A stretch of 52,145 nt of DNA, taken from Candidatus Heimdallarchaeota archaeon LC_3 (GTDB lineage Archaea > Asgardarchaeota > Heimdallarchaeia > Hodarchaeales > LC-3). Positions 19,201-48,714 of this stretch are shown here, piece by piece; position 1 is the first letter of the stretch, and each line of letters starts with the position of its first letter. The notes under the pieces were generated by a model. That model was not told the origin of the DNA, searched no databases, and was given only the letters and a program-made list of their open reading frames with translations. The stretch spans positions 1 through 52,145 of the forward strand of contig MDVS01000083.1 in assembly GCA_001940645.1 (NCBI GenBank), written 5' to 3'. The translations under genes were made by a program, and so were the position numbers.

Positions 19201-20184
19201 ATGGTGTTAGCTGAAATAAGATTTGATAAAGCTGATTATCAACCAGGTGACAGAGTAAAAGCAACTTTTTTCATTGATATGACCAAAATACCTGAGCGTG
19301 TTCAGAAACTTGTTATTTTACTATGTAGTGGTGAAACTACAAAATTTCATAAACCTTCTGATGAAACGCTCTATCGAGGAGAACACGTTTATTCCCAAAG
19401 TATAAAAGAATTCCCTTTCGATGATCTAAAACATCTTACATTGCTCGAGGAAACTCTAGAATATGAACTCCCTTCTTTCCCAATATTTCCTATAAAATAT
19501 CAAGATTTGAGTGTTTTTCATCAAGCTCAAGTTAGATTTGAATCTGATTCTGGGAAAGTTTTTATGCGACGTTCACCTCCTCCGATTACTAAAAACATCC
19601 CATATCGGATTAATGAAAATATCCTTCAAAAAAAGGCAATTGAAACCGAAAAAAATGGATTAAGGATCAAATTAAGTTCAAATGTTTTTGTATCAGGTGA
19701 CAATTTAGAAATAATTGTTCAGATGTTAAATCCCATTAACCATAAGGAGATCCGAATTGAATTATTGCGGAAAACGAAAATAATTTCAAGATCAAAATCA
19801 AGATCAGAAGAATTTAGGAATTTACTTTTAAAGGTCAAGAGACTTGAGGATTTTCCCAAAAAATTTATCGTACCTTCCTCACTTTTCCATTCAGACTCAG
19901 GAAATCTTTACGATTTTACTTTTATGTTAAAAATTATTATTGTGAAGAATATATTACAAAAAAAGAGTGTTGAAATTCCTATCCAATATGCCAAAGATCC
20001 CAATAGACCAATTCAGAGTTTAGATTATTGTGAAAACTGTGGAACAGAAGTAGAAAACGTAAGCTCATGTCCAAATTGTAATGCAACAATTGTTAAATCA
20101 CGAAACAAGACCTCTTTTAAAGTCAGAAATAATTCATCATTATTGTTATCTGATCATGAGAGATCTAGAGGTTGGAAAGAATAA
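19201..20184 (+). CDS. Arrestin-fold protein with C-terminal zinc ribbon
   Basis: The 327-residue protein opens with the arrestin_N-like strand pattern EIRFDKADYQPGDRVKATFF, and the second sandwich begins near GLRIKLSSNVFVSGDNLEII, consistent with the two beta-sandwiches of arrestin/Vps26-type scaffolds. It ends with a four-Cys ribbon, CENCGTEV and then CPNCNATI (about residues 280-300). Arrestin-like scaffolds bind membrane-protein tails or trafficking partners in the cytosol. It starts with ATG, and its divergent neighbour is a Ras-like pseudoGTPase, suggesting a shared regulatory region and linked function. Confidence 0.7.
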   Translation: MVLAEIRFDKADYQPGDRVKATFFIDMTKIPERVQKLVILLCSGETTKFHKPSDETLYRGEHVYSQSIKEFPFDDLKHLTLLEETLEYELPSFPIFPIKYQDLSVFHQAQVRFESDSGKVFMRRSPPPITKNIPYRINENILQKKAIETEKNGLRIKLSSNVFVSGDNLEIIVQMLNPINHKEIRIELLRKTKIISRSKSRSEEFRNLLLKVKRLEDFPKKFIVPSSLFHSDSGNLYDFTFMLKIIIVKNILQKKSVEIPIQYAKDPNRPIQSLDYCENCGTEVENVSSCPNCNATIVKSRNKTSFKVRNNSSLLLSDHERSRGWKE

Positions 20185-23418: not shown

Positions 23419-24053
23419 TTTTAGCTTTTAAACTTGTAGTCCTCAAAAACTCTCAAGCCTTCCAAATTTAAGATATTTTTTATAACAACAGGTCTTTGAC
23501 GGGCATTTACAAATATGTTTTCACTTGAATAATCGATTGTTTGTCCCGAAATCTGAGATAATTGATCATTGGATACACTATACACGACCTTACCCAGTTT
23601 GGACCATATTATTGCCCTTGCACACATAGCACAAGGTTCACAACTTGTAAACAATCCATAATCTCTTAAATCAGTGACTTTATTCTTCCGACAAAACTTA
23701 CTTATAAGCCCCAGTTCTGCATGACTTGTTGGATCAAAGAGACTGTGAATCTCATTTTCATTTTTCATCACAATTTCACCGTTATAAACTAAAATCGCCC
23801 CAAAAGGTTCATTATCCTTTTGTCTCGCTTTTAGAGCTAGTTCTATTGCTATTTCCATGAATTTTTCATTTTCTTTAGACATTTGTATTCAACCTGTATT
23901 AATCCTCAATTGTCCTCAAAATAAATCGACATGGTATTTGATCTACAAATATCGGATCGAATTTATCTTTGTTTACCTTTAAAAAAATATTATTTAAGAA
24001 TTACTTGTAAGACTTCTGTGAAACCAATAGGACGATCAAAAGAAATTGAATCT
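23419..24053. repeat. Deaminase-bearing duplication, copy A (partner 33473-34105)
   Basis: About 635 bp closely similar to 33473-34105. It contains a whole nucleoside deaminase and, beyond its promoter, only the last ~18 codons of the neighbouring gene that is complete at 34051-34254. This makes copy A the derived one. No flanking repeats or transposase are visible. Confidence 0.8.
23421..23882 (-). CDS. Nucleoside/nucleobase deaminase, copy A
   Basis: The 153-residue protein belongs to the cytidine/guanine/tRNA-adenosine deaminase superfamily: zinc ligands HAE (SHAELGL) and PCAMC, with the catalytic Glu in HAE. It hydrolytically deaminates a base or nucleoside in the cytosol; the exact substrate is unclear, with GuaD/TadA-like enzymes as candidates. 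The normally glycine position after PCAMCA is Arg here (CARAIIW), whereas copy B has the usual Gly. About 11 of 153 residues differ between copies by my count. Confidence 0.85.
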   Translation of the reverse strand: MSKENEKFMEIAIELALKARQKDNEPFGAILVYNGEIVMKNENEIHSLFDPTSHAELGLISKFCRKNKVTDLRDYGLFTSCEPCAMCARAIIWSKLGKVVYSVSNDQLSQISGQTIDYSSENIFVNARQRPVVIKNILNLEGLRVFEDYKFKS

Positions 24054-30404: not shown

Positions 30405-30770
30405 ATGGTCGATATTAAAATAATGCTTGCATTCTTATGGGTAGCTCTAATGTTAACTTATTTGTTGGGTGATGTCCTTCGAATATTTACTGGTGATTTT
30501 AAACCTGGAGAAATAGGAGGCAAGCAATTGACTCAGGGAATGTGGTTGGGAATGGCAATATTAATGGTTATTCCAATTGTTATGGTTTTTTTGTCCCTGA
30601 TATTAGATTATCCTGTGAATCCTGGGTTAAATATCATCGTTGCCATATTCTTCTTTCTTTTTAATCTCGCAGGACTACCTACATACCCTTCCGCTTATGA
30701 TAAATTTTTGATAATTGTCGGTCTTGGGTTTAATGTACTGACGGTTTGGTATGCCTGGAATTGGATCTAA
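30405..30770 (+). CDS. DUF6326-like four-helix membrane protein, copy 1
   Basis: 121 residues with four membrane helices: an N-terminal helix ending LLGDVLRIFTG, then MWLGMAILMVIPIVMVFL, a third helix, and a last one after LPTYPSAYDKF (IIVGLGFNVLTVWYAW). The pattern fits the DUF6326 family of unknown function. A close paralogue (31823-32221) lies on the other side of the oxidoreductase gene, and all three share a strand with short gaps (31 and 22 bp), so they are probably one operon. Confidence 0.75.
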   Translation: MVDIKIMLAFLWVALMLTYLLGDVLRIFTGDFKPGEIGGKQLTQGMWLGMAILMVIPIVMVFLSLILDYPVNPGLNIIVAIFFFLFNLAGLPTYPSAYDKFLIIVGLGFNVLTVWYAWNWI

Positions 30771-30801
30771 ACAAGAATGTTTAGATAAGAAATTTATTTA
30801 G

Positions 30802-31800
30802 GTGAAAAGTTTGGAAAATAAAGAAAAAATGAAAGCGATTGTATGCGCAAAATACGGATCTCCGGATGTTCTTGAGTTAAAAGAGGTAGAAAAACCTACT
30901 CCCAAAGACAATGAAGTACTCATCAAAATATTTGCAACAACAGTATCATCAGGGGACGTGAAACTTCGTAGTGCCAACTTTGGTCTCTTGTTCTGGCTCC
31001 CCATGCGATTAGTAATTGGCCTCAGAAAACCAAGAATGAAAAGAACTATGCTAGGGCATGAGCTAGCCGGGGAAGTTGAGTCAGTAGGCAAAGATGTAAA
31101 ATTATTTAGGAAAGGTGACCAAGTTTTTGGATTAACTGGTGTTAAAGGTGGTACTTATGCCGAGTACATATGTCTGCCTGAAGAAAAGATGCTGACAATA
31201 AAACCGGCCGAAATGACCTATGAGGAAGCCGCTGCCGTTCCTATTGGGGGAAATACATCATTACATTTTCTTAGAAAAGGAAATATTCAGAGCGGTCAAA
31301 AAGTCCTTATCTATGGTGCTTCTGGAGCATTAGGTACAGCTGCGGTCCAGCTTGCCAAGTCTTTTGGAGCAGAAGTTACTGGTGTTTGTAGCACGAGGAA
31401 TTTAGAATTAGTGAAATCTCTGGGGGCTAAAAAGGTAATTGATTACACTAAAGAGGATTTTAGCAAAAACGGTGAGAAATATGACATTATTTATGACACA
31501 GTAGGTAAGACTTCATTTTCAAATGTTAAAAGATCGCTAAAGAAAAATGGATTCTATCTTGAAGCTGTCATGAAACTGTCACATACTATTCGAGGCCTTT
31601 GGTCTTCAATAACAGTAGTAGGTGGGATGGCAAGCGAAAAGGCTGAAGATTTAATTTTTCTCAAAGGGCTTATTGAGGAAGGAAAGCTAAAAGCGGTCAT
31701 AGATAGTAGTTATCCGTTGGAACAAATTACCGAAGCTCATAGCTATGTTGAAAAAGGGCACAAAAAGGGAAATCTAGTCATAACAATACAACATAACTAG
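30802..31800 (+). CDS. Zeta-crystallin-like NADPH:quinone oxidoreductase (MDR family), copy 1
   Basis: The 332-residue medium-chain dehydrogenase has the GroES-like N-terminal domain ([19 protein letters not shown]) and an NADPH-binding Rossmann domain with [16 protein letters not shown] (about residues 171-186). The catalytic and structural zinc ligands of alcohol dehydrogenases are absent, as in quinone oxidoreductases. It likely reduces quinones or reactive enones using NADPH. A GTG at 30802 gives a short extension; the internal ATG before [10 protein letters not shown] matches the paralogue's start at 51270. It sits between two DUF6326-like genes. Confidence 0.88.
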
Positions 31801-31822
31801 CGCACGATGAGGTGATGGAATT

Positions 31823-32221
31823 ATGGATGATGTCAAGACAACAATTTCAGCATTATGGGTAGCTCTAATGTTAACATATTTGTTGGGTGATGTCCTTCGA
31901 ATTTTTACTGGTGATTTTATACCGGGAGAAATAGGAGGTAAGCAATTAACTCAGGAAATGTGGTTGGGAATGGCAATATTAATGGTTATTCCAATTGTTA
32001 TGGTCTTTTTGTCCCTAACGTTAATTAATTCTGTGAATCGTTGGGCAAACATCATCGTTCCCATATTCTTTTTTCTATTTAATCTCATAGGACTACCTAC
32101 ATACCCTTCTGCTTATGATAAATTTTTAATAATTGTTGGTCTTGGGTTTAATGTACTGACTGTTTGGTATGCATGGAAGTGGCCTACAAAGGAAAGTGAA
32201 ACCAATCCGGGTATAATTTGA
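31823..32221 (+). CDS. DUF6326-like four-helix membrane protein, copy 2
   Basis: 132 residues, strongly similar to the protein at 30405-30770 throughout, including the identical segments VALMLTYLLGDVLRIFTGDF and LPTYPSAYDKFLIIVGLGFN. Differences cluster in the third helix and the tail, which is longer here (KESETNPGII). The pair arose by tandem duplication around, or followed by insertion of, the oxidoreductase gene. Confidence 0.75.
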   Translation: MDDVKTTISALWVALMLTYLLGDVLRIFTGDFIPGEIGGKQLTQEMWLGMAILMVIPIVMVFLSLTLINSVNRWANIIVPIFFFLFNLIGLPTYPSAYDKFLIIVGLGFNVLTVWYAWKWPTKESETNPGII

Positions 32222-33472: not shown

Positions 33473-34105
33473 TTTAGCTATGAAACTTGTAGTTCTCAAA
33501 AACTCGCAATCCTTCCAAATTTAAGATATTTTTTATTACAACAGGTCTTTGACGGGCAATTACAAATATGTTTTCACTTGAATAATCGATTGTTTGTCCC
33601 GAAATCTGAGATAATTGATCATTGGATACACTATACACGACCTTACCCAGGTTGGACCATATTATTGCCCCTGCACACATAGCACAAGGTTCACAACTAG
33701 TATACAATCCATAATCTCTTAAATCAATGACTTTATTCTTCCGACAAAACTTACTTATAAGCCCCAGTTCTGCATGACTTGTTGGATCAAAGAGACTGTG
33801 AATCTCATTTTCATTTTTCATCACAATTTCACCGTTATAAACTAAAATCGCCCCAAAAGGTTCATTATCCTTTTGTCTCGCTTTTAGAGCTAGTCCTATT
33901 GCTATTTTCATGAACTTTTCATTTTCTTGAGACATTTGTATTCAACCTGTATTAATCCTCAATTGTTCTCAAAATAAATTGACAAGACATTTGATCTACA
34001 AATATCGGTAATTTATCTTTGTTTACCTTTAAAAAAATATTATTTAAGAATTAATTGTAAGACTTCTGTGAAACCAATAGGACGATCAGAAGAAAATGAA
34101 TCTTC
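33473..34105. repeat. Deaminase-bearing duplication, copy B (partner 23419-24053)
   Basis: This copy contains the deaminase with canonical active-site spacing and the 3' end of a neighbouring gene that continues intact, so it represents the older arrangement. Identity to copy A is high through the deaminase and its upstream region. Confidence 0.8.
33474..33935 (-). CDS. Nucleoside/nucleobase deaminase, copy B
   Basis: 153 residues, with HAE and PCAMC zinc-site motifs and the usual CAGAIIW after them. It is the more canonical of the two paralogues (copy A has Arg for that Gly). Same start context as copy A. It probably deaminates guanine, cytosine or adenosine derivatives. It stands immediately upstream (by coordinate) of the VapBC promoter region, on the same strand. 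Confidence 0.87.
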   Translation of the reverse strand: MSQENEKFMKIAIGLALKARQKDNEPFGAILVYNGEIVMKNENEIHSLFDPTSHAELGLISKFCRKNKVIDLRDYGLYTSCEPCAMCAGAIIWSNLGKVVYSVSNDQLSQISGQTIDYSSENIFVIARQRPVVIKNILNLEGLRVFENYKFHS

Positions 34106-36292: not shown

Positions 36293-36325
36293 TATTGGAA
36301 CTCAATCAATTTTTTGGTGATTTAA

Positions 36326-37080
36326 ATGAAAATAAGCAAACTCAGAATGGTTTCAAAATTTATCAACTCTTTTTTTTTAGAATCATTAAAAGAAGGTGGT
36401 ATCTACCGGGTACACCAGAAATAACAGTTGATGAATTATTTGATCGCATAAATACTAATCAAACTCCTTTAATAATTGATACTCGAGACAGAAAGGAATA
36501 TGATGGAGCAGATGGAGCATATAAAACTACTGGACATATACCTAATTCTAGCCAATACCCATAATGAAATTAGCAGAAAAATTAGATGATCTAGAAGAAT
36601 TTAAGGAACAAGAAATAGTAACACTATGTCCGGGAGGGGGAAAGTCATTGGTAGCTGTTGAAATAATGAACAAAGCTGGATTTAAAGATGTAAAGAGCTT
36701 AAAAGGAGGAATTTGGTTATTGGAGAAAAAAGGTTATCCAACCATTAAATCTGAAGATAGTAAAATAGAAAAAAGTGAATCTAAGACATTTGAAGAAAAA
36801 AGAAACAGAAATAGCAGGAACCTACCCCTCGCATGAAGCATATAAAGATGAAATACACTTTACTGTTGATGCACGTGGGTTCAGCTGTCCTATACCAATT
36901 TTAAAATCCAAGAAAACTTTGAAGACATTGAAAATGGGTCAGGTGTTAGAAATTCTAACCACTGATCCGAGTAGTCTACGTGATATTCCTGCTTGGGCTA
37001 TAGCTACTGGTCAGGAACTCTTAGTCTCCGAGGAACGCGGTTCTAACGGTTTTCGTTTTCTTGTTAAACGAATGAAATAA
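36326..37080 (+). pseudogene. Rhodanese-TusA fusion broken by three frameshifts
   Basis: The intact ancestor starts at the ATG at 36326 (MKISKLRMVSKFINSFFLES). A rhodanese domain follows (EITVDELFDRI, LIIDTRDRKEYDGADG, GHIPNS) with the active-site loop TLCPGGGKS, then a linker and a TusA domain (FTVDARGFSCPIPILKSKK) whose CPIP Cys carries sulfur. The frame must be repaired at C2 36406-36407 (plus one), C3 36558-36560 (plus one) and A6 36796-36801 (minus one). Such proteins relay persulfide sulfur for tRNA thiolation or sulfur metabolism. As written, a separate TusA product from an in-frame internal start could still be made. Confidence 0.8.
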
Positions 37081-37398: not shown

Positions 37399-39837
37399 AT
37401 GAAATTGATTGATAAAATCACAGATCCGATTGCTAAAAAAAAGATCTTAATTTTACTTCAACAATGGAAGATGGAGGAAGCTGAGGAAGAAATAGAAAAA
37501 TTAGAGAGCGTTCAATTGTTAGCGGGAAAAATAATTTTAGCTGAAATGTATACCATGCTCTTCAAAGGTGTCAAAACATTAAGTTTATTGGAAAATGCTC
37601 TTTCAGAGACTATTCAAATAGGAGATTCATTTTTAGAAGGATTAGTAAGATCCAGCACTATTTGGGCATTGATCTGGCTTAATCAATCTGAACGAATTAA
37701 AAAGGAACTTTATGATTGGGATGAAGCATTTGATCGTTTGAAAAACACAGATTCCACACAAATCCAGTTATGGGAAAGCAATTTAACTTTTGCGAAAGGA
37801 TTTCATCAATTACAAATAGGATATTTAGATCAAGCAATTCAAATGATTGAGTTAAGTATCGAACAAGCCAAAGAACTGGGGGGAAAATCACATATTGCTG
37901 TACGACTCGGATGGCTAAGCACGGCGTTTGTTCAGCTAGGGGATATAAATTCAGCTCAAAAAACAGCTTTAGAAGGTTTAAAAATTGCTGAATTGATTGA
38001 AACTAAAATAATGGAATCAGGGCCTTTATTCACTCTAGGAATAGTAGAAGCAAGGAAAAATAATTTTGACAATGCCTTAGAACGATTTCAACAAGGTTTA
38101 GATGCGTTTAGACATATACCAATTAATTCACAAATGACTTCTTCCCCATTACTTTGGATGGGGAAAATTTATCATAGAAAAGGAGATCTCAAGCGTGCTT
38201 ATCATTATTTATCAGAATGTTTGAAATTAAGAGAAGATATTAGAGAAGGAGGAATCGAAAACCTCTCTAGGATATTATTTGAATTGATTCATCTCAGTAG
38301 TGACATGGATTCTCCAGCACAGGTTCAGAAATATTTAAACCAATTAAACAGCCTCAATGATTTGGCTACTAACCCCCTAACAACTAAACGATATCTAGTA
38401 GCGGAAGCATTTGTCATTAAACAGGAGACACGATTACATCAACGAATGAAAGCTTATGATTTATTTAGAAAAATTTTGAACGAAAATATTGAGGATTATG
38501 ATTTAACTGTCTTTGCTATTTTGAATTTATGTGAATTACTTGTACTTGAAATAGACAGTACAGGGGAACAAGAACCCTTAAGAGAATTAGAAACTTTATT
38601 ACAACAACTTGTGGAATTAGGTTATAAAAATCAGGCTTATGACTTGGTGATTGAGGTTTTATTACTACAATCAAAAGTCAGTTTAATTGAAAAGAATGTA
38701 GAAAAAGGTAAATCTTTCTTGGAACAAGCTATGATTATGGCCAAAGATAAAGATCTTTCCTATGTAATTTCAAAGATTACCCAAACACAGGAGAACCTCA
38801 ATACTGAAGTAGAAAATTGGGTTAATTTAGCAGATAAACATCAAGTAGAGAGACAACGGCGTGAAACAGACGAGCTTAAGAAATTGATTTCCGGTACACT
38901 TCAAAATGTTCTTACACAAGAACCGAGCCAAATTTATGGAGATTTGGGATTCAAAGCAAACAAAAAATACCAACTTATCTTCAGAGATCTACGTAAAGAA
39001 CAATCAGTATTTCAAAAAAACACCTGTAGGATTGGTATTGCTCAAATTGGTTTGTCTAAAGAAAGTGATATCCTGAGTGAGTTCTATGAAGAAATACACC
39101 CCGGATTGTTTGGATTTAAGAAAGAAAAGTTAGATACAGTAAGATTATTGGTAAAAAATATGGTGGATCGCGCTCATTCAGAGGGGGTAAATATCTTGCT
39201 CTTCCCAGAATTAACTGTCGATCTTAACTATAACCAATTAGTTGAGGAGATCAAACAATTATCCAAGAATTATAATATGTACATCATTCCAGGAAGTTAT
39301 CACAATCGCGAAACTAAACGTAATATTAGTGTAGTAATCAATCAAGACGGAATTCTTTGGGAACAAGAGAAACATATTCCTGCTTCGATCATGTATGAAG
39401 GTCATAGGCTTACTGAAGGTATTGATATAGGATCTGTTCCCAGAAAGACGATTATTTGTGATACAGAATACGGAAGAATGGTTATTGTAATTTGTCGTGA
39501 TTTCCTAGATATGGATTTAAGAGTAGAATTAAAGAATTTCGAACCCCCTATCGATCTCATCTTTAATTTAGCTTTAACTCCAGTAACTGCGGATTTCAAA
39601 GCTGCTCATTTTGATGCGCGGAGATCAATTTATGCTTATTGTTTCTTTGCTAATGTGGCCGAATTTGGAGATTCTTTTATTTACACTCCAGAAAAAGAAC
39701 GTACAGAGTTATCAATTCCTTCCGGAAAGGAAGATCTGATTTACAAAGATGTTGATCTCTTCAAATTACGCTCTGAAAGAAAAAAATGGGAATTAAAACA
39801 AAAAAAAGAGAACTCGTTTATCCAAAGTACAAGGTAG
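37399..39837 (+). CDS. TPR repeat-nitrilase (carbon-nitrogen hydrolase) fusion
   Basis: 812 residues. Residues 1-~490 are tandem helical TPR-like hairpins (for example QAIQMIELSIEQAKELGG, TALEGLKIAELIETK, NALERFQQGLDAFR). A charged linker leads to a carbon-nitrogen hydrolase domain from about 545 with the complete triad: Glu604 in FPELT, Lys658 in QEKHIPA, and Cys699 in VICRDF. Nitrilase-family domains hydrolyse amides or nitriles through a Cys thioester. The TPR half probably recruits a protein partner and may regulate the enzyme. No signal peptide, so cytosolic. ATG start. Confidence 0.85.
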   Translation: MKLIDKITDPIAKKKILILLQQWKMEEAEEEIEKLESVQLLAGKIILAEMYTMLFKGVKTLSLLENALSETIQIGDSFLEGLVRSSTIWALIWLNQSERIKKELYDWDEAFDRLKNTDSTQIQLWESNLTFAKGFHQLQIGYLDQAIQMIELSIEQAKELGGKSHIAVRLGWLSTAFVQLGDINSAQKTALEGLKIAELIETKIMESGPLFTLGIVEARKNNFDNALERFQQGLDAFRHIPINSQMTSSPLLWMGKIYHRKGDLKRAYHYLSECLKLREDIREGGIENLSRILFELIHLSSDMDSPAQVQKYLNQLNSLNDLATNPLTTKRYLVAEAFVIKQETRLHQRMKAYDLFRKILNENIEDYDLTVFAILNLCELLVLEIDSTGEQEPLRELETLLQQLVELGYKNQAYDLVIEVLLLQSKVSLIEKNVEKGKSFLEQAMIMAKDKDLSYVISKITQTQENLNTEVENWVNLADKHQVERQRRETDELKKLISGTLQNVLTQEPSQIYGDLGFKANKKYQLIFRDLRKEQSVFQKNTCRIGIAQIGLSKESDILSEFYEEIHPGLFGFKKEKLDTVRLLVKNMVDRAHSEGVNILLFPELTVDLNYNQLVEEIKQLSKNYNMYIIPGSYHNRETKRNISVVINQDGILWEQEKHIPASIMYEGHRLTEGIDIGSVPRKTIICDTEYGRMVIVICRDFLDMDLRVELKNFEPPIDLIFNLALTPVTADFKAAHFDARRSIYAYCFFANVAEFGDSFIYTPEKERTELSIPSGKEDLIYKDVDLFKLRSERKKWELKQKKENSFIQSTR

Positions 39838-41229: not shown

Positions 41230-41643
41230 TTGTTACAAATAGGCATAAAAAATCAAAATATTATCTCTAATCAAGATTATTCTGATATACATCTAAAAAA
41301 ATTAGTATACAAGTTTCTAAATCAATCAAATTTTGAAATAAAAGAGAATACTACACTGGAAGGAGTTTCAGGACTTGAATATTCAGTTGATTTCTTTGTA
41401 AAAGCAAATGAGGTCGATGGATTACCAGCTAGAATGTTAGTAAAAGTATTAGATTTCAAAAAACCAGCTGGAACTGATGTAATAAATAAATTCGAAAAAA
41501 CTTCTAAAGATTGTAACGCAATGGGGCTAATTGTAAGTAACAAATTTTCAGCGCAAGCTATTTCACTAGCATCAAGAACAGATTCTCTTCTTTTAATGTC
41601 CCGAACCGAATTATTAACAATTTTTTCAACGGAAAAAGAATAA
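41230..41643 (+). CDS. Mrr-like restriction-endonuclease-fold protein
   Basis: 137 residues with the Mrr-type PD-(D/E)xK layout: an opening helix, LEGVSGLEYSVDFFVK with the conserved Asp, a strand, then KVLDFKKPAGTDVINKF and the strand GLIVSNKFSAQAISLA. The usual catalytic QxK/ExK on the second strand reads KVL here, so nuclease activity is doubtful unless the Lys has migrated (FKK). Mrr domains cut or sense modified DNA. Starts with TTG and opens a same-strand run with SLOG, methyltransferase, AlaX and TPR genes. Confidence 0.65.
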   Translation: MLQIGIKNQNIISNQDYSDIHLKKLVYKFLNQSNFEIKENTTLEGVSGLEYSVDFFVKANEVDGLPARMLVKVLDFKKPAGTDVINKFEKTSKDCNAMGLIVSNKFSAQAISLASRTDSLLLMSRTELLTIFSTEKE

Positions 41644-41766
41644 ACTCTTAATTCTTATTTTTTCACTATTTTTCTATCAATTTTGTCAATTTCAAGTAGA
41701 AATTAATACTAAGAAATCTTTTTTTATAAATGCCTGAAAATACCATTGATTAACAAAATGGTTTAG

Positions 41767-42363
41767 ATGATCAATTTGGAAACGCGATATTCGATAGATG
41801 AAATAAAATCAAAATATAATCCAATAATAACAGTGTTTGGTTCTTCTACATGTAACGAAAATTCAAAATTATATGTTTTAGCTAGTAATATAGGAGAAAT
41901 AATAGCAAAGAATGGATATACTACAGCAAGTGGGGGGTATACCTGTGTTATGTCAGGAATAGCCAAAGGATCAACTAAAAATGGTGGAAGGTCAATTGGA
42001 ATAACTACAGATGAAATCACCTCTGTTAAACCCTCCAAATATTTAACTGAAGAATTTCGTGAATATACATTAATGTCCAGGCTAGAAATACTTATTAATA
42101 TTAGTGATGCTTTTGTTGTTCTTCCTGGATCAAGTGGTACACTCACAGAGCTTGCATTAGTTTGGGATAAACAAAAATTAGGTTTAATTCCTGTAAAACC
42201 ATGTTATTTAATAGGAAAAACATGGCACAAGATATTTAATATAATATTCAAAAATAATGATTCTCTTGTTAATAAAAGTCATTGGAAAAAGGATGAAGAA
42301 GTTGAAAACGCTTGTGTACTAATCAATGAACTCCATGACTTGAATAATGCATTAAAAAACTGA
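41767..42363 (+). CDS. SLOG/LOG-family nucleotide-binding protein
   Basis: The 198-residue Rossmann-like protein has TVFGSSTC near the N-terminus, SGGYTCVMSGIAKG, and the family signature VLPGSSGTLTELALVW (P120-E128). LOG enzymes are nucleoside-monophosphate phosphoribohydrolases, and the wider SLOG superfamily includes sensors or producers of nucleotide signals in conflict systems. Position between an Mrr-like gene (123 bp) and a DNA methyltransferase gene (20 bp) favours a role with these. The enzyme versus sensor question cannot be settled by eye. Confidence 0.8.
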   Translation: MINLETRYSIDEIKSKYNPIITVFGSSTCNENSKLYVLASNIGEIIAKNGYTTASGGYTCVMSGIAKGSTKNGGRSIGITTDEITSVKPSKYLTEEFREYTLMSRLEILINISDAFVVLPGSSGTLTELALVWDKQKLGLIPVKPCYLIGKTWHKIFNIIFKNNDSLVNKSHWKKDEEVENACVLINELHDLNNALKN

Positions 42364-42383
42364 CTAAAATAATTGTTATAACG

Positions 42384-44696
42384 ATGTTAAATTATAGAAG
42401 TGAATTTAAAGATCATGAAGAGACTAAAATTAATAGTGAATCATTTATTAATTTATTTGGTTCCTCATCTCAAATATTTAAAACTGGAAAAGAAATCTTT
42501 TTAAAAATAATACAATATTTTAACAAAGATAGTGTTGAATACAGAAATTTAATAATTATTAATCCCAATCTCAATGAAAATATTATAGCAATTCAACTGT
42601 ATTATATTTCAATTTTAAGGGGATTAATAATTGGTCTCCTTAAAATATCAAACAAATCTCTTGATGAGAAAAATTATGATTCAATAGTGAATATAAATGA
42701 AAAGAGTGAGAGTTCAAAAGAAATAATTTATCGAGATCTTATCTCTGAGATTGATCTAGTTAAACCTTTTCTTGAAAAGTGTTATAAGCAAAATAAAGAT
42801 TGGAATATGTCATATTTCAATATTTTATTCCATTTCGTCAATAATAAGGCATTTCTTAAAGAAATTTTAATCAACGATCTTTTTCAGCAATTTTATTTAG
42901 ATTTGTTTCCGGGATCGTTAAGAAAAAAACTAGCTGAAGTCTATACTCCTATTTGGTTGGCAAGACACATAGTAGATCAATCTTCATGGGGAACATTACT
43001 ATCTGAAAGAATTTTAGATCCATCTTGTGGATCTGGCACTTTCATTAAAGAATTTATTACTAAAATAAGAGAAAAACACGAAGAAACTACTAATACTGAA
43101 AAAATATTTGATTTCATAATTGAAAGCATTTTTGGATTTGATATAAACCCTATAGCCGTTTTTACTAGTAAGTTAAATTATCTTTTACATATCTTGGATA
43201 TTATTCCAGAAAATAAATCTTTTAATATTCCAGTGTTCTTAAAAGATGTTTTTAAAGCTGAACCTTCGATTGAATTGAAATTTGACCATATATTAGGAAA
43301 TCCTCCTTGGATTAATTGGGAAAATTTAACAGAATACAATAAAGATTTTCTAGCTGACATTTGGAATCAATACATTAATTCAAATTACACAGGAATGAAT
43401 TCTATGCTCGGTCATACGAAACAAGATATATCGGGATTATTCTTTATTAGAGTAGCTGAAAAATATCTAAATAATAATGGGAAAATCTCACTTATAATGA
43501 ATAAAAGTTTGATTAATGGAAAAGCGAATAGTTCTTTTAGAGAATACTTACTGCATGGAATGGAAAAAGAAAATTTATCAAAAAATGTTAGCATTATACA
43601 AATCGAAGATTTAGGTGCGTTTCAACCGTTTAAAAATGTAATAACATCCACAATTATACTCCACGGACAACAAGGTGTTGATAAAAAAGAAAATTTTCCT
43701 TATGTTAAATGGAAAGTTAAATCTAATTTGAATTTATCCTCTGTTGAAACTCTATCGATAAATAATTTCGAATTGGAATCAATCACTGCTGATTACATAA
43801 AAATAGGACCAGATTCAAATATTATTATCCCTAATTCGAAATTAAATATTAAATTAATAAATAGATCTTCGGAAAAATCTGAAAAATATTTTGCAAAAGA
43901 AGGAGCTAATACAGAAGGATTGAACGCAGCTTATTGGATAAAGGAAATAAAGGAGACAAATGGAAATTTAATTAAATTTTCTAATTATAATCATCGTCAA
44001 AATAAGAAAATTTATTTGAAACATGAAATTCCGATAGAAACAGACTTAGTATTTCCTTTAATAAGATCAGGGAATATAAGTAAATGGCTGTATACACTAG
44101 ATACTTTTATCATTTTTACAGCGAAATATTTCTTAGAAGAAATTCGAGAAGAGAAATATTTTAAAAAAAAGTATCCAAACACGTTAAAATATTTTGCCAA
44201 CATTAAAAAGGACTTAATTAATAGGAAGAGCTACATTGCTAAATCAAAAAATCTTCCATATTACATTATGTATGGTAATTCTGATATGATTTCAGACTAC
44301 AAAGTTTGTTGGAAAAGAATGGGAAAAAAAATCGAATCCGTTGTAATTGGAAAAGAAGATAATCTATTAATTGGTAAAAAAAGTCCAATTCCACAAGAAA
44401 CAGTTGTATATATAAATACTGGAAGTAACTTTGAAGAAGCACATTATCTGTGTTCAGTTATAAATTCAGAACTGTTTAATCATGCGGTAAGTGATATTAA
44501 AATACCTGGTACTAAAAGTTTTGGAACACCAGATATTCTAAACTATATTAATATTCCTGAATTTAAAGAAAAGAATAAAAATCACATTGATTTAGCAAAT
44601 AACTCGAAGTTAGCGCATAAAATTAAACTATCAGGAAAAAATACTAATAAAATTGAAGAGAAAAATAATGATTTAGTTAAAAAGATATTTTCATAA
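42384..44696 (+). CDS. N6-adenine DNA methyltransferase (Eco57I/PglX-like)
   Basis: 770 residues. A helical N-terminal domain of about 190 residues precedes a gamma-class adenine methyltransferase: motif I DPSCGSGTF (D212-F220), FGFDINPIAV, and motif IV GNPPW (G305-W309). A long C-terminal target-recognition-like region follows. It methylates adenine in DNA at a specific site. It lacks an obvious nuclease domain, so any restriction would depend on other genes such as the Mrr-like protein. ATG start. The architecture resembles type IIG/BREX PglX methylases without their other partners. Confidence 0.85.
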   Translation: MLNYRSEFKDHEETKINSESFINLFGSSSQIFKTGKEIFLKIIQYFNKDSVEYRNLIIINPNLNENIIAIQLYYISILRGLIIGLLKISNKSLDEKNYDSIVNINEKSESSKEIIYRDLISEIDLVKPFLEKCYKQNKDWNMSYFNILFHFVNNKAFLKEILINDLFQQFYLDLFPGSLRKKLAEVYTPIWLARHIVDQSSWGTLLSERILDPSCGSGTFIKEFITKIREKHEETTNTEKIFDFIIESIFGFDINPIAVFTSKLNYLLHILDIIPENKSFNIPVFLKDVFKAEPSIELKFDHILGNPPWINWENLTEYNKDFLADIWNQYINSNYTGMNSMLGHTKQDISGLFFIRVAEKYLNNNGKISLIMNKSLINGKANSSFREYLLHGMEKENLSKNVSIIQIEDLGAFQPFKNVITSTIILHGQQGVDKKENFPYVKWKVKSNLNLSSVETLSINNFELESITADYIKIGPDSNIIIPNSKLNIKLINRSSEKSEKYFAKEGANTEGLNAAYWIKEIKETNGNLIKFSNYNHRQNKKIYLKHEIPIETDLVFPLIRSGNISKWLYTLDTFIIFTAKYFLEEIREEKYFKKKYPNTLKYFANIKKDLINRKSYIAKSKNLPYYIMYGNSDMISDYKVCWKRMGKKIESVVIGKEDNLLIGKKSPIPQETVVYINTGSNFEEAHYLCSVINSELFNHAVSDIKIPGTKSFGTPDILNYINIPEFKEKNKNHIDLANNSKLAHKIKLSGKNTNKIEEKNNDLVKKIFS

Positions 44697-44751
44697 CTTA
44701 CTCATATTTTTGATTTGTAACAATAAATTACTTACAATAATCAAGTGATTC

Positions 44752-46044
44752 TTGTTGTGTATACCTAAACCATATTGGATTGATCCTGATTTATCTGATT
44801 TCGAAATTGAAATAATTAAAGTTGAAAATGGATCATTTTTCACAAAAGAAAGTTTACCGATGTTTTTAGGTGGTGGAGGTCAGCCTCCAGATGAAGCCAT
44901 ACTAATTTTGGATAGCAAAACTTCATTCACAGTTAAAAATCCTTTAGAATATTCTTTTAAATTAAAAGAAAAAGTACAAAAAGAAGATCAATTGTCTCTA
45001 CCATTTAAAGGAAAATTAGAAATTAATTTAAATCTTAGAAGAGCCTATATGCGAGCTCATACTTCTCAGCATGTAGTATCAGCAATTATTAAGAAAAATT
45101 TTGATATTGATACTAGTAAAGCAGTTTTGGAAGATGATGAATCCAAGTTAATTCTTAATAAAAAATTATCAATTAATCAGTTAAATTTAGTTTTAACTGA
45201 ATTCTACCGAATTATGAATCAAGATTTGGATATAAAAACGCGAGTTATAAAAAAAGGTCAAAATAAAGATATAAATGGTAATTCAGTTGATTTAGGCTTG
45301 ATAAGAGGAGACATACCATCAAAAGAAGAATGCATTAGGTTAGTTGAGATTGATGGAGTAGATTTAAACACTTGCGGTGGAACTCATTTATTGAAAACTT
45401 CAGAAGCATTGTCCATTGTGTTTACAGAATTAAAGAAAGATATTATAACATTCAAGGTCGGTTATAAAGCAATACAGATAATGAAAGATAATCAAGAGTT
45501 TCATGTTAATTTAATTAACAAATTAACTCTTCCATACAAGAAAATAAGTGAAAGAACACTCGAAATTGTAAACTCTTACCCAAAAATCCAGAAATTAAAT
45601 TTTGATTTATCAAAAACATTTCTCAAATCAATTCTCTTTTTAATAAAAGAAAATTTTTCAAAAGAAGTTTCTCCAGATTTTGAAATTAAACAGGGTTCAT
45701 TCACAGATGAACCGTTGAAAAAGCAAAATCTACCAATAGAAGCAAAAATATATGGAAAAACTCTGATAATATTAATGAAATTGTCATTCATGAATAGAGC
45801 AACTTTTATTTCATCTATCATTGATTTTTCTTTTCCCACTGTATTAATAGCAGAAATAGAAAAAAAGAATTTGATTTGTCAAAGTAATAAAGAGACTATA
45901 TTCTCAGCAAAAGAGTTTCTTGATAAGTTAGTTAAAAGATCTTGTGTAAAAGGCGGTGGATCTGATAAACAGATTCAATGTTCTATAAAAGAAGTTGAAA
46001 ACGTCTTTGGAATAATTAAATCAATATTAGAGAATAAAAATTGA
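44752..46044 (+). CDS. alaX: AlaX-type alanyl-tRNA editing protein with DHHA1-like C-terminus
   Basis: 430 residues. The editing domain has the GGGGQPPDEA loop (about 40-49) and the zinc-site motifs HTSQH (103-107) and CGGTH (208-212), which hydrolyse misacylated Ser- or Gly-tRNA(Ala). A C-terminal region ends with a glycine-rich KGGGSDKQIQ resembling DHHA1 of alanyl-tRNA synthetase, making this the long AlaX form. It starts with TTG, 55 bp after the methyltransferase gene. Whether it belongs functionally to that cluster or only shares its transcript is unknown. Confidence 0.85.
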   Translation: MLCIPKPYWIDPDLSDFEIEIIKVENGSFFTKESLPMFLGGGGQPPDEAILILDSKTSFTVKNPLEYSFKLKEKVQKEDQLSLPFKGKLEINLNLRRAYMRAHTSQHVVSAIIKKNFDIDTSKAVLEDDESKLILNKKLSINQLNLVLTEFYRIMNQDLDIKTRVIKKGQNKDINGNSVDLGLIRGDIPSKEECIRLVEIDGVDLNTCGGTHLLKTSEALSIVFTELKKDIITFKVGYKAIQIMKDNQEFHVNLINKLTLPYKKISERTLEIVNSYPKIQKLNFDLSKTFLKSILFLIKENFSKEVSPDFEIKQGSFTDEPLKKQNLPIEAKIYGKTLIILMKLSFMNRATFISSIIDFSFPTVLIAEIEKKNLICQSNKETIFSAKEFLDKLVKRSCVKGGGSDKQIQCSIKEVENVFGIIKSILENKN

Positions 46045-46077: not shown

Positions 46078-47388
46078 ATGACTGAAACTTTTAAAGAAAA
46101 ATGGAAAAATGCCCAATTCTTATTTAAAGAACGTCAATATGGATTTGCAAACAAAATTTTAGAAGAAATAAAAAATTCCAATGAGTTTCGTAGACAATCA
46201 ATAGATTTACAAGGTGAAATTTTACTTCTTCATGCAAAAATAAAACGAAATAGTGGTGAAAACGAGCAAGCAGGTTTAATCTTAAAAGATATATTAGAAT
46301 TACTAATTTCCCAACCAATTCGAGGACAGGTACTACGATTACTTGGAGCTCTAGCATTTAGTAATGGAGAATTAGAAGCAGCAATCCATTACATATCAAA
46401 AGAATCAGAAATATGGATAAAAGAGAACAATAAATCAGAATATGCAAGTTGTATGTATTACTTGGGAGAAATTTATCGTTTCATGGGAAAATTTGATGAA
46501 AGTAAGGGGTTCCACCAAAAGGGGTTAAAATATAGAGAGAACCATAAAGAAACTGAAAATGAAAAAAAAGATCTAGTAGCTTCTTTAAATGGACTTGCAC
46601 ATTTACATCGATCTTTAAATCTTGATAACGATGCTGAAGAATTATATACAAAAATTCTTGATATTGACAAAGCTAACGGATTCCATCTAGAAGTTTTATT
46701 AGATTATTACAACTTAATCCTCTTATCCTTGGGAAAAAGAATTGCTGAAGACACTACTTATTGGGTTGAGGAAATCAAGTCTTATAATTCAGATCAATTT
46801 GAAGAAATTAAAGAAACGATTCTGAAAATTATTAATGGTCATATGGAAAGACTCCAACATCATTATAACCAAGCAATAAGATTATTTGATAGTTCAACAG
46901 CATTATTAGAAGATTTACCTTATATGGAATTACTTATCTCAGTCCGGTTGGGGATAATAGAATCTCTAGTATGTGCATTGGGAACTTCTGATGAGGAGAA
47001 AAGTTTTACCATAGATTATGTTAAAGAATCAGTTCTAAATGAGTTTTATAAAATACTTGAAAAATGTGGATCTAATCGTTATTGGACAATGGCATTAGAA
47101 ATTTTGTTTGTACAAATCAAGTATTACCAGATTATTGATCCAGATTATCAAAGAACTCTAAAGACACTACGTGAGGGAATTAAATTAGCAAGAGATTGGG
47201 ATTTACCTACCTATGAAAGTGAATATCGTGAATACTTAAATGAATTGCAGTCTAACTCAGAAACGTATAGAAATAAGCAATATGATGAGCACTTTGAGTT
47301 TACAGGTTCCGAATTAGAATTACAAAGAGTATTTAGAAATGATTTTGTACCATTAATAGATCTATTAAGACAAAAAAGAAATTTATGA
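46078..47388 (+). CDS. TPR repeat protein
   Basis: 436 residues of helical hairpins in TPR style (GEILLLHAKIKRNSGENEQA, CMYYLGEIYRFMGKFDESKG, ASLNGLAHLHRSLNLDNDAE, TKILDIDK). No catalytic motif. It is likely a cytosolic protein-protein interaction scaffold. ATG start 33 bp after the AlaX stop. It converges with the Rag-like GTPase gene, the two stops being about 4 bp apart. Confidence 0.75.
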   Translation: MTETFKEKWKNAQFLFKERQYGFANKILEEIKNSNEFRRQSIDLQGEILLLHAKIKRNSGENEQAGLILKDILELLISQPIRGQVLRLLGALAFSNGELEAAIHYISKESEIWIKENNKSEYASCMYYLGEIYRFMGKFDESKGFHQKGLKYRENHKETENEKKDLVASLNGLAHLHRSLNLDNDAEELYTKILDIDKANGFHLEVLLDYYNLILLSLGKRIAEDTTYWVEEIKSYNSDQFEEIKETILKIINGHMERLQHHYNQAIRLFDSSTALLEDLPYMELLISVRLGIIESLVCALGTSDEEKSFTIDYVKESVLNEFYKILEKCGSNRYWTMALEILFVQIKYYQIIDPDYQRTLKTLREGIKLARDWDLPTYESEYREYLNELQSNSETYRNKQYDEHFEFTGSELELQRVFRNDFVPLIDLLRQKRNL

Positions 47389-47392
47389 TTTC

Positions 47393-48301
47393 TTATTTAG
47401 ACTGAATATAATATTCAGCAAAGGATTCACTAGATACCTTAGTAAACCTACAATAAATTGGTTTAGAAAAACCCTCTAAAAAATTATCAACTACTTCTTG
47501 TTTTGATATAATTTCTGAAGATGGTATATCATCTAAATAGATTTTTAATCTCACAAAATCTTTATCTTTCTCCATTCTATAATCAAATTTCGATTTATTA
47601 TCATCAAGAGGTTTATTTTGTAAAATTGAATCTAAAAAATTCTTTCGAATCTCAACCCCATGTTTTTTTCCTAAAGAAATTAGATATTGAATGATGTCTT
47701 CTTTTTTATTCAAATCAGAGATATACCAGTTATTAGGGTCAACATCTGTTAACCCGATTTTGAGTAAAGATCCGAATGATATTTTAATTATTAGTTTGTA
47801 TAATGCAATTGTACATGAGTCATCTTTTATTGATGTGAAATGTATATTTGGTTTGAATTTATTTGCTGTAAACACTTCATTTACAAAATTATAATATAGA
47901 GTTAAATTTTGATTTAAGCTGTCTCTTAATTCCGGATCGTATTTGTGAAACAAGACCCCAATTAGTGGATTCATGTTAATATCTTTAATTATACCAAGAA
48001 TGTTTAAGAAATATTCTTTTACCTGTTCAATTCGTTCTTTATCATGAAGATCAATTACAAATAATATTAAATCATTTTGAGTAAAATTTTTTGTAGTAAG
48101 GTGTTTGCTTAGATAGGCTTCTTGACCACCAAGATCAACTACATAAAGCGGTTCATTAGTCCAACTTGGCTCTATATTCGTTTCTTCCCTGAAAATGGTA
48201 GGAGGTATATTATATAATTGTTCTAATGAAATATTAGTAAATACACTCTTAATAATAGAGGTTTTTCCGGCCTTGCTAAGTCCTACAACAGTAACTTTCA
48301 T
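47393..48301 (-). CDS. Rag/Gtr-like GTPase
   Basis: 302 residues. G1 is VVGLSKAGKTS (7-14), G2 a Thr in PPTIFREE, G3 DLGGQ (56-60), G4 HKYD (119-122) and G5 TSIKDDS (156-162). A His in place of Asn/Thr in G4 and the TSI G5 are hallmarks of eukaryotic RagA/Gtr1 GTPases. The ~130-residue C-terminal part may be a roadblock-type dimerisation domain. The start codon overlaps the stop of the upstream longin-like gene as TAATG, so the two are translationally coupled. It probably works as a membrane-associated switch with that partner. Confidence 0.85.
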   Translation of the reverse strand: MKVTVVGLSKAGKTSIIKSVFTNISLEQLYNIPPTIFREETNIEPSWTNEPLYVVDLGGQEAYLSKHLTTKNFTQNDLILFVIDLHDKERIEQVKEYFLNILGIIKDINMNPLIGVLFHKYDPELRDSLNQNLTLYYNFVNEVFTANKFKPNIHFTSIKDDSCTIALYKLIIKISFGSLLKIGLTDVDPNNWYISDLNKKEDIIQYLISLGKKHGVEIRKNFLDSILQNKPLDDNKSKFDYRMEKDKDFVRLKIYLDDIPSSEIISKQEVVDNFLEGFSKPIYCRFTKVSSESFAEYYIQSK

Positions 48302-48714
48302 TAAGCCCCAACCTCCATTAATGATTTTGGTAAAAATTGAATATTACTTCTTACAATCCTTGTGATTTTCGAATGTAACGACCTTTCTTCTATGTTTGAA
48401 ATAAAATCGCTGTTAGCGTTAATGGATTTTAACATACCTTTGAAAAAATCACCAACATTAAGCTCTGATTCATAATCAGCAACGATTAAGATAAGTAATA
48501 TGTCTGGTTTTTCTTCTAATTTCTTGAAATATATTGATGTTGAACTCATAGTGACATTATTTAAGTCTTCCTTCATTGTCGCTGTAGCAAAACTGTGTAA
48601 TGCAGATAAAAAGCCAGTTACGAGTACACGATCATCTCTCGTAAAAAATGATGAACCCTCTGAGTAGGAGTAGGCAACATTTCCTTTATTGTATATGTAG
48701 AATTCTAAATCCAT
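48301..48714 (-). CDS. Longin/roadblock-like partner of the Rag-like GTPase
   Basis: 137 residues: strand MDLEFYIYNKGNVAYSYSE, a helix beginning DRVLVTGFLSALHSFATATM, then strands and ILLILIVADYE, and a final helical region with EERSLHSKITRIVRSN. The pattern fits a longin or MglB/roadblock-like domain, often a GTPase scaffold or GAP/GEF subunit. It lies first in a two-gene operon with the Rag-like GTPase (TAATG overlap), analogous to Rag-Ragulator and MglA-MglB gene pairs. Domain call moderate, operon call strong. Confidence 0.7.
   Translation of the reverse strand: MDLEFYIYNKGNVAYSYSEGSSFFTRDDRVLVTGFLSALHSFATATMKEDLNNVTMSSTSIYFKKLEEKPDILLILIVADYESELNVGDFFKGMLKSINANSDFISNIEERSLHSKITRIVRSNIQFLPKSLMEVGA

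Follow-up and report, generated by a model that had tools for sequence, protein, structure and literature searches.

The locus and its genes

We analysed a stretch of 52,145 nucleotides from Candidatus Heimdallarchaeota archaeon LC_3 (contig MDVS01000083.1, positions 1 to 52,145), hereafter the window. The genes of interest are three consecutive plus-strand genes for an Mrr-like protein, a LOG-type protein of the SLOG superfamily and a gamma-class N6-adenine DNA methyltransferase (the methylase), which the original prediction had read as one candidate conflict system (Table 1). The observation of these three genes is confirmed: the coordinates of the open reading frames (ORFs) give the described order, with gaps of 123 bp (Mrr-LOG) and 20 bp (LOG-methylase) and with an AlaX-like and a TPR protein gene following. 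The three motifs quoted (PGSSGTLTE, DPSCGSGTF and GNPPW) are all found in the sequence, and the three proposed folds were all matched in Pfam (PF04471, PF18306 and PF02384/PF07669).

Each of the three proteins has homologues in other sequences; their genes are therefore true genes and not chance ORFs. Homologues whose source name is Candidatus Hodarchaeales archaeon exist for the methylase (P0002 and P0004), the Mrr-like protein (P0124) and the LOG-type protein (P0134). Together with the Ras-, Rag- and arrestin-like genes described below, they make a Hodarchaeales-like Asgard origin of the contig most likely. The AlaX-like and TPR genes, which follow at 55 bp (methylase-AlaX) and 33 bp (AlaX-TPR), belong to the tight same-strand run as much as the other three, and no gap among these five genes is wider than that between the Mrr-like and LOG genes.

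Table 1. Genes and features of the five-gene run, with their positions in the window
Feature	Position	Strand	Remarks
Mrr_cat-like protein, 137 aa	41230..41643	+	PF04471 match; TTG start; probable pseudonuclease
K72-V-L-D75-F-K77, position of the Mrr QxK site	41443..41460	+	K72, L74, D75 and K77 invariant in 7/7
LOG-type (SLOG cluster4) protein, 198 aa	41767..42363	+	PF18306 match
PGSSGTLTE, LOG signature with Ser replacing the second Gly	42124..42150	+	Glu128 invariant in 13/13
Gamma-class N6-adenine DNA methyltransferase, 770 aa	42384..44696	+	without the nuclease-like N-terminal part
All-helical N-terminal region of the methylase, residues 1-164	42384..42875	+	structure model
S-adenosylmethionine-binding motif I, DPSCGSGTF	43017..43043	+	sequence and alignment
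Catalytic motif IV, NPPW	43299..43310	+	invariant in 52 aligned rows
AlaX-like alanyl-tRNA editing protein	44752..46044	+	same-strand run; outside the proposed system
TPR protein gene	46078-47388	+	last gene of the five-gene run

A gamma-class methylase without the nuclease-like part of its long relatives

The methylase matches N6_Mtase (PF02384, E 2.2e-13) and Eco57I (PF07669, E 2.6e-11). Motif I, then NPPW, then a C-terminal recognition domain follow one another in a single chain, which is the arrangement of gamma-class N6-adenine enzymes. Its structure model aligns over residues 159-770 with CamA, the closest among the matches listed, an orphan gamma-class adenine methyltransferase of known structure (7lt5 and others; PMC8187626). 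Motif order and structural alignment thus agree with the class assigned in the original prediction. The two enzymes are 20% identical, no relation to sporulation is seen for the window enzyme, and the additional N-terminal helical region is found only in the latter; this region aligns with type I M, MmeI, BrxX and LlaGI.

PADLOC labels the methylase type IIG (PDLC03630, E 8.8e-98). With type IIG enzymes it shares the methyltransferase part, the recognition part and the preceding helical region, but it differs from them in that the nuclease-like N-terminal part of the long relatives is missing. In a 52-row alignment the long relatives have 346-374 residues where the window enzyme has 164, and a nuclease-like N-terminal motif is present in 73 of 82 long relatives and in none of the 31 short ones. 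This motif was not found in the window methylase, the N-terminus of which is helical in the model; thus the nuclease domain fused N-terminally in type IIG enzymes is absent here. No nuclease is fused to the methylase, and nearby there is only the Mrr-like protein, a probable pseudonuclease.

The ten strongest methylase matches in 301 genomes of the phylum of a Chloroflexota-titled locus (G004) comprise eight in frames of 976-1196 aa, one truncated where its contig stops and one short (731 aa; genome G245). The neighbours of the short one are by eye a cytochrome oxidase, a sulfurtransferase and a transporter, and no nuclease was noticed by eye in 14 kb. Matches at 1e-60 or better occur in 12 of 294 genomes of a second phylum (G003, Phycisphaerae-titled); in both regions opened, a contig stops at the methylase ORF or close to it, and they give little information. 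Finally, 68 plasmid records have methylase matches, all below 60% identity, and the four opened are single ORFs of 1048-1076 aa, the size of a fusion.

The Mrr-like protein is probably a pseudonuclease

The Mrr-like protein exceeds the Pfam cut-off for Mrr_cat (PF04471, E 1.4e-5, 25.6 bits vs 21) and consists of this bare domain, with no further domain in its 137 aa. Mrr itself carries an N-terminal DNA-reading winged-helix domain. None was found in the 137 aa of the Mrr-like protein, for which Pfam gives only Mrr_cat and a match to NA-iREase1 (PF22722, NACHT-associated inactive endonuclease) under the cut-off (18.3 bits, cut-off 27). A word-based search of 5.8 billion proteins returned six homologues besides the protein itself, one of them named Hodarchaeales, and the family looks narrow.

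The structure prediction proposed earlier as a means of locating a PD-(D/E)xK site was made, and its model (predicted local distance difference test, pLDDT, 47.9) is too poor to place the site or to compare folds. The site was therefore judged by sequence profile, and the comparison with NA-iREase1 is by score only. By sequence search no Mrr relative was found among solved structures, and a profile-profile comparison of the family with six Mrr domains is weak (probability 5.5). The profile comprises 62 sequences from 63 Mrr_cat loci and was seeded with sequences chosen by the canonical D...[QE]xK expression, so that its register leans to canonical Mrr. In this register all seven Mrr-like proteins align on the lvqaK strand with Gln changed to Lys and the catalytic Lys to Leu (QxK to KxL), which bears out the doubt on catalysis voiced in the original prediction. 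The helix-1 Glu is Lys in the four of the seven Mrr-like proteins whose profile alignment reaches that position, and it is Lys or Arg in the six rows of the family alignment that have the column (6/6); position 54 is Asp in six proteins and Glu in the seventh. Relative to the catalytic domain of Mrr endonucleases the protein thus shares the family score and differs in QxK, as read in the profile register, and in having no added domain. Because both QxK and the helix-1 Glu are changed in this register, in line with the sub-threshold match to PF22722, we consider that it is probably a pseudonuclease.

The LOG-type protein belongs to a separate clade

The LOG-type protein matches SLOG cluster4 (PF18306, E 5.2e-19), and its sequence can be aligned to solved structures of cytokinin riboside 5'-monophosphate phosphoribohydrolases. 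Its Arg105 and Glu128, invariant in 13/13 LOG-type homologues, fall on the Arg and Glu of the aligned LOG enzyme, which we take to be the catalytic residues of LOG enzymes. The likeness to LOG phosphoribohydrolases and SLOG cluster4 thus lies in this aligned pair, and in the GGYxxxM loop seen in the cluster4-like relatives from bacteria. In contrast, 12/13 rows of the window type have PGSxGTLTE instead of PGGxGTxxE.

In a tree of 62 rows the 13 Asgard-like LOGs group in a single clade (99/99), separate from the 13 canonical LOGs (100/100), among which locus L007 (identical to L004), being of GGY type, is not counted. The window protein groups with P0129, P0130, P0131 and P0132 in a set of five rows (98/97). 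The Asgard clade sits on a long branch (1.22), outside a 23-row bacterial clade that contains all 16 synthetase-linked loci described below. A clear grouping of the SLOG protein with housekeeping LOGs had been named beforehand as an argument against a conflict system: the protein is indeed of LOG type, but its clade is apart from the canonical LOGs. Passages of PMC9503650 describe the best characterised LOG-like SLOG domains as cleaving the base off adenine nucleotides, often modified ones, and SLOG domains as serving in several conflict systems.

Bacterial LOG loci have a tRNA-flavoured context

LOG matches at 1e-15 or better were found in 103/251 genomes of the G004 phylum. Among 30 bacterial LOG loci fetched, 16 have a member of one ORF cluster immediately after LOG on its strand, and a second cluster occurs in six. 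Family scans covered 74 of the 86 flanking ORFs (the 12 left out are mostly short) and gave a class II tRNA-synthetase core in 16, with the C-terminal domain of prolyl-tRNA synthetase in 12, and PolyA_pol in six. Since the counts are equal (16 and 6), the two ORF clusters were equated with the prolyl-tRNA-synthetase-like and PolyA_pol families. In the LOG-synthetase loci (L056, L058, L059, L062-L067, L069-L073, L079 and L081) the LOG gene, directly upstream, is of the GGY subfamily. This context is housekeeping and tRNA-flavoured; it is compatible with the position of AlaX as second gene after LOG in the window, though the Asgard clade lies outside the bacterial one.

Mrr_cat is absent from the best 25 of the 70 families found for the 74 flanking ORFs, so at most one of them could have this domain. 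Similarly, no Mrr_cat was seen by eye within 80 kb of a LOG on the same contig among the matches listed (121 genomes for Mrr_cat, 251 for LOG). A contig profile search with the LOG alignment gave five loci, all bacterial by title.

Mrr and LOG probably recur together on other contigs

The homologue lists hold representatives of clusters at 90% identity and, for the methylase, the best 120 of 962 matches. In them, as judged from an equal base count and the same source, two more contigs carry both an Mrr and a LOG homologue, one of 1467 bases (P0123 and P0129, source ena) and one of 1680 bases (P0125 and P0131, source lgn). Under a crude random-draw model the chance of two such matches in base count is 0.00015, and both contigs just fit the two genes. 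The adjacency of Mrr and LOG beyond the window thus seems real. The methylase homologues, on the other hand, have no contig in common with the Mrr or LOG homologues among the matches listed: the contigs of the four nearest measure 56553, 9402, 14592 and 4404 bases, and the Mrr and LOG lists contain none of these.

There is no sign of a phage-borne set. Searches of viral contigs with the LOG alignment, the Mrr alignment and the single methylase sequence, the last reaching close relatives only, gave no confirmed relative. Among phage records, 30 have LOG-type matches, all below 60% identity, and one record matches 16% of the methylase; no Mrr match was found there.

Known defence systems and neighbouring genes

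The window ORFs were scanned with Pfam (40), NCBIfam (10) and PADLOC (4), and no partner of a known defence system was seen among them. Thoeris, which combines a TIR signal maker with a SIR2-SLOG effector, shares only the SLOG superfamily with the window, where the LOG-type protein is LOG-like and not of the ligand-sensing clade; no TIR or SIR2 domain was reported in the 40 ORFs scanned with Pfam. BREX PglX, DISARM DrmMI and MADS MAD2 gave partial matches to the methylase domain only, with NCBIfam models far below cut-off, the LOG match of PsyrTA is weak and partial, and VP24 matches (E about 0.001) were taken as chance. Among the open-licence papers listed on SLOG, Mrr, Asgard defence and Hodarchaeales, none describes the set of Mrr, LOG and methylase in its title or abstract.

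The AlaX-like protein has 430 aa and a TTG start. It matches the NCBIfam model AlaXM under its cut-off (5.6e-23, 81.9 bits, cut-off 300), and its long C-terminal part matches positions 504-800 of the archaeal alanyl-tRNA synthetase model, likewise below cut-off. Elsewhere in the window, the ORF at 37399-39837 encodes an 812-aa protein in which TPR repeats are fused to a carbon-nitrogen hydrolase (nitrilase-type) domain, and a sequence that looks rhodanese-like by eye is split across two abutting ORFs (36295-36836) followed by a TusA-like ORF. Two deaminase genes of 153 aa each lie 10 kb apart on the minus strand (23421-23882 and 33474-33935), and at 30405-32221 a zinc alcohol-dehydrogenase-like gene stands between two DUF6326 genes. 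The ORF at 19201-20184, with an arrestin-like domain just under cut-off and a C-terminal double zinc ribbon match, adjoins a Ras-like GTPase gene. At 47393-48714 a Rag/Arf-like GTPase gene overlaps by one base a gene of 137 aa without clear family.

Discussion

The explanation that we favour, and consider fairly probable, is that a lone CamA-like methylase lies beside a separate, narrow Hodarchaeal pair made of a dead Mrr domain and a LOG-type protein. The methylase would be a solitary, self-sufficient gamma-class N6-adenine enzyme that marks one motif on the host chromosome by means of its own recognition domain. It would come from the nuclease-free minority of a type IIG-like family, with a CamA-like role, either regulation or leftover self-marking, rather than restriction. 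The LOG-type phosphoribohydrolase would cut the base from adenine nucleotides, probably N6-modified, and the dead Mrr domain may act as the DNA- or partner-binding subunit of the pair.

Several points weigh against this explanation. The lists of cluster representatives, and of the best 120 of 962 matches for the methylase, can hide shared contigs, and the missing contig sharing between the methylase and Mrr or LOG is weak evidence; moreover all but one of the six other Mrr contigs, both shared ones included, are below 1.7 kb and too small for the methylase. The gap of 20 bp between LOG and methylase favours co-transcription. Conversely the Mrr-LOG pair is not constant among the matches listed: one long Mrr contig (61296 bases) shows no LOG, and four LOG contigs above 6 kb show no Mrr, one of them (P0130, 44395 bases) belonging to the five-row set of the window LOG. 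For the LOG-type protein itself, 12/13 rows have Ser where PGGxGT has its second Gly. As for the nucleases, Pfam names none in the extra N-terminal part of five long methylase relatives, so the nuclease reading of this part rests on the motif, the PADLOC label and the literature. Lastly D75-x-K77, invariant in 7/7 Mrr-like proteins, is similar to the nuclease-like strand seen in the long methylase relatives and may be a functional (D/E)xK motif.

The interpretation given in the original prediction is partly supported. It would make of the three genes one conflict system: the methylase would mark self, DNA bearing no mark or a wrong one would be sensed or cut by the Mrr-like protein, and the LOG-type protein would produce a nucleotide signal or sense one. 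The tight same-strand order with its 20-bp gap, the recurrence of the Mrr-LOG adjacency and the use of SLOG domains in several conflict systems (in the passages of PMC9503650) speak for it. A survey of Asgard defence leaves some room for the idea, since the part of it concerning Hodarchaeales gives fewer known systems (4.4 per genome) and suggests uncharacterised ones (PMC11291487). However, the methylase shares no outside contig with Mrr or LOG among the matches listed, the methylase lacks the nuclease-like part of its long relatives, the LOG-type protein retains the residues of the hydrolases, no defence partner was seen among the scanned window ORFs, the bacterial LOG relatives of the wider subfamily are in a housekeeping-like context and the same-strand run reaches AlaX and TPR equally. 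The evidence for one conflict system is weak, and we find it rather unlikely. The bacterial context suggests as an alternative a tRNA-linked housekeeping function, in which LOG would act on tRNA-derived modified adenines with AlaX as its true context and with Mrr and the methylase as bystanders. The prolyl-tRNA-synthetase-like gene downstream in 16/30 bacterial loci, the PolyA_pol-type (CCA-adding-like) gene in 6/30 and the place of AlaX in the window, second after LOG, argue for this. But the Asgard clade, with its long branch (1.22), is not within the 23-row clade of bacteria, the methylase separates LOG from AlaX, and the window is the only Asgard LOG context seen; we judge this function decidedly unlikely.

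The missing N-terminal part of the methylase raises another alternative, a split type II restriction-modification set in which the Mrr-like chain would be the nuclease that the long type IIG relatives carry N-terminally. Exactly that nuclease-like part is what the methylase lacks, and VLDFKKPAG of the Mrr-like protein resembles the IEYKKPG strand of the long relatives. A precedent comes from Haloferax volcanii, in which the nuclease part of a type IIG gene stands alone, according to the abstract of PMC4389544. Against this, the catalytic Lys is replaced by Leu in the profile register, the scan of five long relatives reported no Mrr_cat, and on the other contigs seen Mrr goes with LOG and not with the methylase, though these contigs are too short for the latter. 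Such a split set appears very improbable. The slimmest chance of all is given to an N6-methyladenine (6mA) cycle, in which the methylase would write 6mA, the dead Mrr would read it and LOG would cut the glycosidic bond of N6-methyl-(d)AMP after DNA turnover, preventing misplaced recycling or freeing the base as a signal. It fits in that the known preference of LOG is for modified adenine nucleotides.

The names under which homologues are recorded, "restriction endonuclease" (P0124) and "LOG family protein" (P0134), may mislead, and annotations taken from them call for caution. If the 6mA cycle were true, the archaea closest to eukaryotes would clean up epigenetic nucleotides in a new way. The lone methylase with a separate Mrr-LOG pair, the explanation that we favour, has consequences for both parts. 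The pair, if it recurs, would be a small archaeal module tying a DNA-binding fold to nucleotide hydrolysis. The methylase, if solitary, would give an Asgard archaeon a 6mA writer of the CamA kind, and would offer a candidate for work on adenine methylation of DNA close to the root of eukaryotes.
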